In this document: in pieces, positions 17,676 to 20,488 of the stretch
How the letters are laid out: every line of letters begins with the position of its first letter
How positions within the stretch are numbered: position 1 is the stretch's first letter
The notes under the pieces: generated by a model
What the model saw: the letters and a program-made list of their open reading frames with translations, nothing else
Told to the model about the DNA's origin: nothing
The model's database searches: none
Program-made: the position numbers and the translations under genes
NCBI GenBank assembly: GCA_949295125.1
Contig: CASFJV010000063.1
Coordinates: forward strand, 1 to 64,000
Source of the DNA: an uncultured Spirochaetales bacterium
Lineage (GTDB): Bacteria > Spirochaetota > Spirochaetia > Sphaerochaetales > Sphaerochaetaceae
Reading direction: 5' to 3'
DNA: 64,000 nt

Positions 17676-18920
17676 CTATCCTTGTTTCAAACTCTTTTTC
17701 CTGTCAAGCAAATAGCCTGCGATTCCCCCAATAATTGCAGGTGGCAGCCATATGAACGGTGATGAGAACAGCTTCAGTATCGTCAGCAGGGAAAAGAGGA
17801 GGGCAAGAGTTACACTGAACACATATGTGCAGTGCAGCTTGTCCGTGTCCTTGATAAACGACAGGCCTATCAGTGTTATGGCTGCAGGGTAGAGCAATGT
17901 AAGTATGGGGCTTGAGACTCTGATAATGGCATCGAGCCCTATGTTGGATATCAGGAAGGAGAAGAAAGCGAAGATGAATATCCATGCTGTCCTGCTGATT
18001 CTGCTGTATAGCCTGTTGAAGAATTCCCCACAAGAAGAAAGCAGTCCTACTGAGGTGTTAAAGCATGCGATGATGAAGATCAGGGCCAGTATCGGGCGGC
18101 CAAAGCTGCCGGAGACATGGTAAGCCATCTCAGACAGGACTTCAGCACCATTTGATGCATCAGAGGAAAAGCTTCTTGCAGAAAGGCCGACGGACACTAT
18201 CATGAGATAGATTGCCAGAAGCAGTATTCCTCCGCCGATTGCTGCGATTGCTTCCTCTCTTCTCTCTTTCCCTTTCTCCGTCCCGATAGCCTTTACATTG
18301 ATTGAAAGTATTATTCCGAATACCAGTCCGGCTAAGGCATCCATTGTCTGATAGCCATCAGTAAAACCAGTCTGGAATGCGCTTTCTGAATAGGCATCCT
18401 TTGCTGGCATGTTTGAATCATATGGAACAGAGAGCGAAAAAACAAAGAGAATGACTATCAGCAGCACGAGTGCTGGAGAGAGTATTCTCCCAAGCCTTCT
18501 TGTCAGTTTTTCCGGGCGCAGTGCAATGAGTGAACTCAGGAAAAAGAAGATGGCGGAATAGATAAGCCTTGAAGCCATGCTGTCAAAAGGATATGCCTTC
18601 ACAAGCATTTCATAACTTGTGCTTGCAGTCCTTGGAATCGCAAGGCAAGGGCCAATTGCGAGATAGATGGCAACTGTGAATATTATGCCGAATGCAGGAT
18701 GCACCCTGCCTGCAAGCTTTTCCGCAGACCCTGCCCGGCTTATTGCGATAAGGGATAATACCGGAAGCCCTATGGCAGTTATGACAAATCCCAGGAATGC
18801 AATGCCTGCGTTTTCGCCGGCTTTATATGCAAGAAATGGGGGGAATATGAGGTTCCCTGCACCAAAAAACATGGCAAAAATGGTAAATGATAAGATAACT
18901 CTCTTCTTTAAGCCGGTCAT
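17676..18920 (-). CDS. brnQ: branched-chain amino acid:cation symporter (BrnQ/LIVCS family)
   Basis: About twelve membrane segments over 414 residues. The N-terminal signature ILSFTIFAMFFGAGNLIFPPFLAYKAG is diagnostic of the LIVCS family, which imports leucine, isoleucine and valine with sodium ions or protons. GPCLAIPRTASTSYE near residue 95 is also typical. I start it at the internal ATG (18920), where family members begin; the longer frame adds an unrelated 26-residue stretch. The start lacks a Shine-Dalgarno and has GATAAT six bases upstream, so the mRNA may be leaderless. The ferredoxin-type reductase follows. Confidence 0.92.
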   Translation of the reverse strand: MTGLKKRVILSFTIFAMFFGAGNLIFPPFLAYKAGENAGIAFLGFVITAIGLPVLSLIAISRAGSAEKLAGRVHPAFGIIFTVAIYLAIGPCLAIPRTASTSYEMLVKAYPFDSMASRLIYSAIFFFLSSLIALRPEKLTRRLGRILSPALVLLIVILFVFSLSVPYDSNMPAKDAYSESAFQTGFTDGYQTMDALAGLVFGIILSINVKAIGTEKGKERREEAIAAIGGGILLLAIYLMIVSVGLSARSFSSDASNGAEVLSEMAYHVSGSFGRPILALIFIIACFNTSVGLLSSCGEFFNRLYSRISRTAWIFIFAFFSFLISNIGLDAIIRVSSPILTLLYPAAITLIGLSFIKDTDKLHCTYVFSVTLALLFSLLTILKLFSSPFIWLPPAIIGGIAGYLLDRKKSLKQG

Positions 18921-18926
18921 ATCAGT

Positions 18927-18932
18927 ATTATC
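18927..18932 (-). promoter_or_regulatory. -10 hexamer, candidate leaderless promoter
   Basis: GATAAT on the minus strand ends six bases before the ATG at 18920. It matches TATAAT at five of six positions but has no clear -35. Confidence 0.35.
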
Positions 18933-19042
18933 TTCGCAGAAAGAATACCAGAAGGCAAGAACGTTAATGATAGCGGTGGCCCTCCTGATCCGATCCATGC
19001 CGGCAGACCTTTCTCCATTTTATCCATTTCCCTGTGGACACC

Positions 19043-19072
19043 TTGTGCCAATCAGTCTTTTTCTGTTACCCT
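19043..19072 (+). promoter_or_regulatory. candidate promoter of the MFS exporter
   Basis: TTGTGC (19043-19048), 18-bp spacer, TACCCT (19067-19072). It would start a transcript just upstream of the leader ORF at 19103. Confidence 0.35.
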
Positions 19073-19102
19073 TCAGACAGATTAATAAGGAGAACTTTTC
19101 CT

Positions 19103-19138
19103 ATGCTTTGTATTGCAGCAGCTCCCTGCGAAGCCTGA
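19103..19138 (+). CDS. 11-codon leader peptide of the MFS exporter
   Basis: The frame MLCIAAAPCEA has an AAGGAG Shine-Dalgarno (19087-19092) ten bases upstream, better placed than for many genes here. Its last codons and stop form the 5' arm of a 16-bp stem reaching towards the exporter gene. By analogy with erm, mef and similar drug-inducible genes, ribosome stalling on this peptide could open the stem. Coding status is inferred from the signals, not from similarity. Confidence 0.45.
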   Translation: MLCIAAAPCEA

Positions 19139-19210
19139 AGCGGACGGCCGCATGGAGCATAGATAAACAGGTCCGCCAGGCTTTGCTTCAGAAAAAAATC
19201 ATAAAGGAGC
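19128..19210 (+). promoter_or_regulatory. candidate translational attenuator with alternative hairpins
   Basis: Bases 19128-19145 pair with 19171-19186 in a 16-bp stem interrupted by a two-base bulge (138-139) and one G-U pair, closing a 25-base loop. GCTCC (19121-19125), inside the leader ORF, can pair either with GGAGC in that loop (19154-19158) or with GGAGC (19206-19210), which contains the exporter's Shine-Dalgarno. A GCGG/CCGC hairpin (19140-19151) competes with the long stem. Mutually exclusive folds of this kind are typical of ribosome-controlled attenuators. Confidence 0.5.
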
Positions 19211-19216
19211 AAAGCA

Positions 19217-20488
19217 ATGAAAGATAAAAAGAATTTCAACAATTTCCTGCTACTATGGGCAACCCAGACACTTTCACGTCTTGGATCGTCATTGACGCCA
19301 TTTGCGCTTATTTTATGGGCTTATGGTGAGACTGGATCTGCACTGAGCACTGCACTTCTTACAGTATCTTCTTATGTGCCTTATATTCTTCTCTCGCTTC
19401 CTGTAGGAACTCTGACTGACAGGATGAATAAGAAACGCCTGATGCTTCTTTCCGATACGGCAGCAGCATTATGCACATTCACGATACTTTTAATATGGCT
19501 TTCGGGAAATCTTGAACTATGGCATATCTATTTAGTGAACTGCATCACTGGAACAGCGCAGGCATTCCAGCAGCCTGCAAGCGAGGTTGCAATTACACTG
19601 GTTACGCCCGAGGATAAGTACCAGAAAGCAGGGAGCCTCAATGCTCTTGCATACAGTGTAATCAATATGGCATCTCCACTGATTGCAACAGCCCTGTATT
19701 CTGCCGGAGGCCTTAGCCTTGTGATTGCCGCAGATCTATTGACATTCACGGTGGCATTCCTTTCTCTCCTGCTCTTTGTCAGGATACCGGAGCCTGGCAG
19801 CATAAAAGGGAAGGACAGCCATATCCTGATGGATCTGAAGGAAGCACTGGGGTTCTTCAGGATAAATGCCGGAATACTCCAGGTAATATTATTCCTTGCT
19901 GCGATCAATTTCATAGCTTCGATCTATAATGCTGCACTTCCTGCCATGATCCTAAGTTTGGAAGATGAGAGTGTGCTTGCTGCCGTACAGTCAGCGGCAG
20001 GCATAGCCATGATTGCCGGAAGTGCAATTGCCACCATGATGCCATCTCCAAAGAGCAGGGTGAGGGTAATCATAAGTTCGCTGTTTATCGCAATGAGTAC
20101 GGAGAACTTCATGCTTGCTTTCTTTAAAAGCCCTGTAATGTGGTGTATAGGGGCATTCCTCGGATGGCTCTTCATCCCTGTAATGAACACAAATCTGGAT
20201 GCACTGATGAGAAGCCAGATTCCGCCTCTCATGCAGGGAAGGGTGTATTCTGCAAGAAATATGCTTCAGTTCTTCACCATTCCTCTTGGATACCTTGCTG
20301 GTGGATTCCTTGTTGACAGCGTATTTGAACCGTTCATGGCTGGGAGTTCCAGCATTATCCTAAGGAACCTGTTTGGAACAGGAAAAGGGTCTGGCTCTGC
20401 ATTCCTTTTTTCCGTAATCGGCGTAATGGGGGTGCTTACCTGTGTGATTTTCTCAAGGCTTAAGGCTATGAGACAGCTGGAGAGATGA
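19217..20488 (+). CDS. MFS transporter (MefA/EntS-like, probable drug exporter)
   Basis: 423-residue inner-membrane protein with about twelve hydrophobic segments. Its start (FLLLWATQTLSRLGSSLTPFALILWAY) and the loop LPVGTLTDRMNKKRLM match the MFS_3 group that includes macrolide exporter MefA and enterobactin exporter EntS. FQQPASEVAITLVTPEDKYQKAGSLN is also characteristic of that group. AAAGGAG lies seven bases before the ATG. The leader ORF and alternative hairpins upstream suggest control by ribosome-targeting compounds, which would fit an antibiotic exporter, but the substrate is not readable from sequence. Confidence 0.85.
   Translation: MKDKKNFNNFLLLWATQTLSRLGSSLTPFALILWAYGETGSALSTALLTVSSYVPYILLSLPVGTLTDRMNKKRLMLLSDTAAALCTFTILLIWLSGNLELWHIYLVNCITGTAQAFQQPASEVAITLVTPEDKYQKAGSLNALAYSVINMASPLIATALYSAGGLSLVIAADLLTFTVAFLSLLLFVRIPEPGSIKGKDSHILMDLKEALGFFRINAGILQVILFLAAINFIASIYNAALPAMILSLEDESVLAAVQSAAGIAMIAGSAIATMMPSPKSRVRVIISSLFIAMSTENFMLAFFKSPVMWCIGAFLGWLFIPVMNTNLDALMRSQIPPLMQGRVYSARNMLQFFTIPLGYLAGGFLVDSVFEPFMAGSSSIILRNLFGTGKGSGSAFLFSVIGVMGVLTCVIFSRLKAMRQLER

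Follow-up and report, generated by a model that had tools for sequence, protein, structure and literature searches.

The intergenic stretch between a divergent BrnQ-type gene and a gene for an MFS exporter in an uncultured Spirochaetales bacterium of the gut holds a short open reading frame (ORF), and the question raised by this locus is whether the position of a ribosome on that ORF decides if the exporter is translated and, if so, what would halt the ribosome. Throughout, the window denotes the whole stretch of DNA analyzed (64,000 nucleotides). We judge it quite likely that the region is a ribosome-controlled translational attenuator, built as a four-segment switch, in which an early halt of the ribosome is most likely imposed by an antibiotic acting on the peptidyl transferase centre. 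The elements to which we refer are the following.

17676-18998, minus strand: divergent BrnQ-type gene
19087..19092, plus strand: AAGGAG, Shine-Dalgarno (SD) sequence of the leader ORF, read from the sequence; a purine-rich SD also lies upstream in the listed orthologues
19103..19138, plus strand: leader ORF, 11 codons (MLCIAAAPCEA) and TGA; ATG at 19103, TGA at 19136-19138
19112..19114, plus strand: Ile4 codon, predicted P-site codon of the inducing stall, inferred from constrained folding
19121..19130, plus strand: segment 1, GCUCCCUGCG, within leader codons 7-10
19128..19145, plus strand: segment 2, GCGAAGCCUGAAGCGGAC, 5' arm of the 2:3 stem
19149..19158, plus strand: partner of segment 1, CGCAUGGAGC, in the loop of the 2:3 stem (covarying helix 1:2)
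19171..19189, plus strand: segment 3, GUCCGCCAGGCUUUGCUUC, 3' arm of 2:3 and 5' arm of 3:4, covarying with segments 2 and 4
19206..19215, plus strand: segment 4, GGAGCAAAGC, which includes the exporter SD (helix 3:4)
19217..20488, plus strand: MFS exporter, the putatively regulated gene, 423 amino acids, TIGR00900/Mef-related

A sequence-only reading of this DNA had described a short leader ORF with an SD sequence, and each of its elements was found where that reading had placed it; likewise, the coordinates confirm that the ORF ends inside the 5' arm of a 16-bp stem (19128-19145 with 19171-19186). The GCTCC motif in the leader codons (19121-19125) had been proposed to pair either with the exporter SD (GGAGC, 19206-19210) or with a second GGAGC (19154-19158). 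Both pairings exist, in that segment 1 can engage 19149-19158 (1:2) or, via GCUCC, the exporter SD at 19206-19210 (1:4), but the main helix sequestering the SD is another one. The earlier set of hairpins, all of them present, lacked a fourth segment and its helix 3:4, in which GCUUUGCUUC (19180-19189) pairs with GGAGCAAAGC (19206-19215) at 10 of 10 positions and buries the exporter SD. The minimum free energy of the RNA is -49.6 kcal/mol (z = -2.5; 3 of 200 shuffled sequences were equally good), and the corresponding fold combines the 16-bp stem with pairing of GCUCC and AUUGC from the leader codons to the GGAGC and the start codon of the exporter. Fold energies amount to -36.4 kcal/mol for 2:3 plus 1:4, -27.4 kcal/mol for 1:2 plus 3:4, and -27.0 kcal/mol for 2:3 alone. 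By itself, the folding z-score is modest, and the decisive evidence is comparative. A mini-ORF in the loop (ATGGAGCATAGATAA, 19152-19166) was weighed as a possible second leader; we dismissed it because other leaders do not conserve its reading. A simple scan, which left other promoter types out of its scope, detected no sigma-70-like promoter. The exporter had been called MefA-like; it is indeed related to Mef proteins, but scores far below the curated NCBIfam cut-offs (108.8 against 675 bits for MefA and 98.9 against 870 for MefC). A search by sequence with the exporter profile retrieved no solved structures.

An exporter orthologue, or a fragment of one broken by a contig end, is carried by 23 of 48 genomes of Candidatus Ornithospirochaeta. 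These same-genus orthologues share 65-84% identity, and the leader together with the segments is kept, as far as readable, in all 18 of the 18 loci that reach upstream. Orthologous leaders without the ORF or with a broken stem had been named as what would refute an attenuator, and the outcome of this comparison favours one. In one of the genomes (G067), GCUUCUUGCG stands opposite CGCAAGGAGC and pairing is still complete, while leader codons L2 and C3 differ at synonymous positions within the genus. When the survey was widened to one genome per species, 67 loci were obtained, and the leader was also found ahead of homologous MFS exporters (45-55% identity) in Clostridia, Paenibacillus, Sporolactobacillus, and other spirochaetes. 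Among the carriers are Lacrimispora, Ruminococcus, Hungatella, Paenibacillus, Sporolactobacillus, and Fusibacter (homologues with 47-54% identity), in which the leader is present wherever upstream sequence exists; the sequence of one locus (L100) begins too late to show it. Judged from these genome sequences, the leader-switch system is not peculiar to spirochaetes. The leader peptide consensus across phyla reads MxLCIxxAPCKV and is followed by TGA, TAA or KVK-TAG; at a few loci (e.g., L098 and L108) the early stop is lost. Recoding of UGA in the leader was dropped as an idea since TAA and TAG stops occur as well.

Covariation was assessed on a MAFFT alignment of 47 leaders that was built without structure. 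For helices 1:2 and 3:4 taken together, 94.6% of the cells are paired, and 8 pairs with 49 cells are changed on both sides, compared with shuffled means of 3.6 pairs and 13.2 cells; none of 500 shuffles reached the observed values, and all of these measures collapse once one side is slid against the other. Taken singly, helix 1:2 has 93.9% of its cells paired and helix 3:4 has 95.5%, the latter with double changes at five pairs. Helix 2:3 is paired in 97.7% of cells, with 6 pairs and 27 cells changed on both sides, a result matched by 0-1 of 500 shuffles. The column triple 38/124/189 illustrates how the helices are coupled: an A in segment 3 faces U on both partners (T-A-T) in 19 sequences, and a G in segment 3 faces C on both (C-G-C) in 15. 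Since segment 3 covaries with segments 2 and 4, it is complementary to both at once, which is the signature of a switch. Kinship among the leaders inflates the covariation counts, but the outcome of the sliding control, together with the count of separate lineages, makes chance an unlikely cause of the pattern.

The leader is also constrained as a peptide. In column shuffles of 100 distinct leaders, the Leu at position -5 (84 Leu in six codons; shuffled mean 73.5) and the Cys at position -4 (78 Cys in two codons; shuffled mean 57.0) were each retained to an extent that none of 500 shuffles reached. These two residues, which lie ahead of the RNA segments, are hence held at the amino-acid level via synonymous codons. 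The A-P-C-K-V part coincides with segments 1 and 2, and peptide constraint cannot be separated there from RNA constraint. In the alignment, the Ile codon (counted from its first base) and segment 2 stand 16 nt apart with no indels between them, as they do in the window; this spacing fits the leading edge of a ribosome as known from toeprint distances. The Ile codon itself (window 19112-19115 and homologues) is ATT in 83 of the 85 leaders that have Ile, and the next codon nearly always starts with G, an ATT-G nucleotide constraint for which the helices tested do not account.

To locate the position at which a ribosome would open the exporter SD, we folded the leaders with a ribosome footprint held unpaired for each codon; the footprint reached 14 nt upstream of the first P-site base and 13 or 15 nt downstream of it. 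Helix probabilities were scored in place of a metric based on the SD bases, which was confounded in Firmicutes because the SD lies partly in a bulge. Without a ribosome, helices 2:3 and 1:4 coexist in the window (0.89 and 0.86). With codon 4 (Ile) in the P site and the 15-nt edge, the window gives 0.89 for 2:3, 0.11 for 3:4 and 0 for 1:4, and the means of 15 spirochaete leaders are 0.91, 0.09, and 0, respectively. From codon 6 onward, 3:4 averages about 0.90 or more in both leader groups; in the window it rises from 0.72 at codon 6 to about 1.00 from codon 7. The picture is less clear-cut for the window at codon 4 with the 13-nt edge (0.62 for 2:3 versus 0.38), some non-spirochaete leaders show a weak switch in these computations, and placing codon 2 in the P site, and hence Cys3 in the A site, opens the fold partially. 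In silico, the clearest open state is that of a ribosome halted after Met-Leu-Cys-Ile, residues that are conserved at the peptide level; the stall itself remains an inference. Conservation, covariation and footprint-constrained folding lend good support to the proposal of the earlier reading that ribosome position selects between folds. The stall at the leader stop codon that the same reading envisaged has to be given up as the ON state, since a ribosome there favours the closed fold with 3:4 formed; Ile4 is the codon predicted for that state. A ribosome that holds Pro8 in its P site, so that Ala7 is the penultimate residue, is attractive under the chloramphenicol rule but was rejected for the same reason: 3:4 closes.

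Conservation, covariation, the fixed spacing, and the association with resistance-type genes are observations. In the absence of expression, toeprint or drug data, we infer translation of the leader, the stall and its site, the drug and induction by it, and export of the drug by the MFS protein. In the mechanism that we propose, a leader free of ribosomes would hide the exporter SD through 2:3 plus 1:4 (or 1:2 plus 3:4). A ribosome reading through to the stop codon would cover segments 1 and 2, so that 3:4 could form and the exporter would stay off. A ribosome halted with Ile4 in the P site, in contrast, is predicted to shield segment 1 as far as the border of segment 2; 1:2 and 1:4 would be blocked, 2:3 would form, and segment 4 would be left free for translation of the exporter. 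Such a halt would most likely come from an antibiotic of the peptidyl transferase centre (a phenicol, streptogramin A, a lincosamide or a similar compound).

This arrangement has three features of the erm/cat-type attenuators of resistance genes: a leader ORF with its own ribosome-binding site (its translation being inferred), mutually exclusive helices with the SD inside 3:4, and a stall position that frees the SD, codon 4, which is established only in silico. With ermC/ermB-type attenuators, in which macrolides induce stalling on a leader peptide, it shares the short leader ORF, the four-segment logic of 1:2/3:4 versus 2:3, an SD hidden in 3:4, and, as predicted here, expression that is switched on by a ribosome stalled within segment 1. 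It differs from them in its extra 1:4 lock and in the genes behind it, which are those for an MFS exporter, CatA/Vat and Cfr instead of Erm. The peptide MxLCIxxAPCKV is unlike those of the macrolide leaders compared (MTASMRLR, MTHSMRLR and relatives), and an MRLR-type arrest motif is absent from about 100 leaders. The chloramphenicol-inducible leaders of catA86 and cmlA possess a single hairpin that sequesters the SD, and different peptides. They resemble the family in the window in the presumed class of inducer, an inferred early arrest while the nascent chain is still very short, and control at the level of translation, whereas the window family possesses competing segments and is common to unrelated gene families across phyla. 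The mef(E)/msr(D) leader (MTASMRLR) likewise controls a Mef-related MFS exporter, but mef(E) relies on a Rho-independent terminator and an RLR macrolide-arrest peptide (PMC4335068), neither of which is present in the window.

Transcription attenuation of the mef(E) kind (PMC4335068), in which the 2:3 or another stem would be a Rho-independent terminator that a stalled ribosome prevents, could draw on the 10 of 32 non-spirochaete leaders in which at least five of the eight bases after segment 3 are T. Such a T run can, however, pair with the A run ahead of the SD and lengthen 3:4; a U tract follows segment 3 in none of the 15 spirochaete leaders, the window included, and no terminator-like site was found in window 18980-19260. 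Since a terminator role would also leave the covariation of 3:4 and the inclusion of the SD in this helix unexplained, we consider it unlikely and retain translational attenuation.

A covariance model of the element was used to scan two sets of Lacrimispora-centred genomes (391 and 299), 250 genomes of Bacilli, 297 of Spirochaetia, and 325 of the Anaeromassilibacillus order; it found matches in 28, 44, 5, 18, and 33 genomes, respectively. The majority of matches precede an MFS exporter. Five lie ahead of genes for CatA-type acetyltransferases in which the catalytic HHxxxDG motif is present; the leaders are MKRGLDAAPCEA (L158), MKFCIAVFPCKA (L159), MKRGLDNAPCEA (L161), MKLCIAASPCKA (L255), and MKRGLDAAPCKA (L257). 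A Vat-type gene follows at L158 according to its HMM match, and a near-identical one follows at L161 by sequence. Since NCBIfam sets its cut-offs at 270 bits for CatA and 300 for Vat, and the proteins score about 200-214 and 245, respectively, we regard them as relatives and not as certified enzymes. Weaker matches precede three Cfr-family methyltransferases, two recognized by HMM (L166 and L264) and one by sequence likeness (L170). At the Cfr loci, as at loci encoding CD3324-family small proteins, the RNA segments are present and the LCI-APC leader is mostly absent or not recognisable. The CD3324-family genes lie behind like segments at L163, L167, L168, L169, L198, L199, L207, L210, L212, L213, and L267, with the pattern CTCCATGCAAAGCC..TTGCATGGAG..GGCTTTGC..AAGGAG. 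Directly in front of the attenuated cfr-like gene at L166 comes an Lsa-type ABC-F gene (L166:133-1461), and the two form a cluster of peptidyl-transferase-centre resistance genes. At seven other loci (L254, L262, L203, L260, L258, L263, and L265) the element precedes genes for uncharacterised hydrolases and methyltransferases or for radical SAM/SPASM proteins; the types are ceramidase-like (L262 and, similar by sequence, L254), PF00756 esterase, alpha/beta-hydrolase, radical SAM/SPASM, and class I methyltransferase. We regard these genes as candidates for drug inactivation or drug resistance. The element is missing from the plasmid-borne cfr, cfr(C), and catA records that served as controls, whereas it does accompany an MFS homologue located on a Monoglobus replicon.

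The genes behind the element also bear on the idea that the leader senses an amino acid, the ribosome pausing at the Cys codons when Cys-tRNA is short and the MFS protein moving a related metabolite. Cys is strongly conserved at leader codons 3 and 9, and the partial opening seen with codon 2 in the P site places Cys3 in the A site; yet Cys3 is swapped for Ala, Met, Glu, Gly, and others while the RNA stays intact, the predicted folding optimum is codon 4 and not codon 2, and the downstream genes include CatA, Vat, and Cfr types and not sulfur genes, which makes this explanation very improbable. A riboswitch-like RNA that binds a ligand or a protein and needs no leader translation would suit the very high nucleotide conservation of the segments and the related segments ahead of CD3324-family and Cfr genes without an LCI-APC peptide, but the mimicry of segments 2 and 4 explains that conservation, and with the leader SD and start, Leu-Cys conservation at the amino-acid level, and an indel-free spacing from Ile codon to segment 2 against it, we hold it to be highly doubtful.

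With a translated leader as the preferred reading, the question of the inducer can be approached from the genes that the leader accompanies. What phenicols, streptogramin A, and the drugs of the Cfr spectrum have in common is the A-site cleft of the peptidyl transferase centre. The company of CatA and Cfr probably points to inhibitors of this centre (phenicols or related compounds) as inducers, induction being inferred, and the downstream genes suggest such drugs rather than classical macrolides. Chloramphenicol and linezolid stall ribosomes depending on the nascent-chain context; Ala is the best penultimate residue, Ser or Thr being less effective (PMC8987054, PMC11832420). The residue before the leader Ile is Cys in 78 of 100 leaders, Ala in 9, and Met, Glu, Tyr or Asp in a few. 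Since it is mostly Cys and not Ala, Ser or Thr, the leader fits the chloramphenicol rule only partially, and the exact drug remains unresolved. We see about an even chance that the attenuator family, which Spirochaetota, Clostridia, and some Bacilli share, acts as a general, portable sensor of peptidyl-transferase-centre drugs that serves MFS exporters, CatA plus Vat, Cfr, esterase- and ceramidase-like hydrolases, and methyltransferases, that the unknown genes behind it are candidate resistance genes, and that the MFS protein of the window is a new kind of exporter.

Control of this class has long been known (erm, cat, mef); what appears to be new is the family of leaders, the range of phyla that it spans, and its use by unrelated resistance-type genes. 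Rfam searches at gathering and permissive thresholds returned only chance microRNA matches and no family at gathering score. We did not find a description of the leader in the open-access literature; since most subscription papers and preprints were outside the scope of that search, a prior description is possible. If our interpretation is correct, many gut commensals carry a large family of leader-peptide attenuators, Leu-Cys-Ile is an arrest sequence that offers a new nascent-chain context for a ribosome drug, an upstream element of this type flags intrinsic resistance genes that homology alone misses, and Mef-related exporters of unknown function gain a directly testable class of substrates. 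Leader fragments comprising the ORF and segments 1-2 also occur without an adjacent MFS gene at L014:1501-1583 (G018) and L017:1501-1559 (G008); they break off after the partner of segment 1 or earlier, and are probably what is left of a lost exporter, or else artefacts of the contigs.
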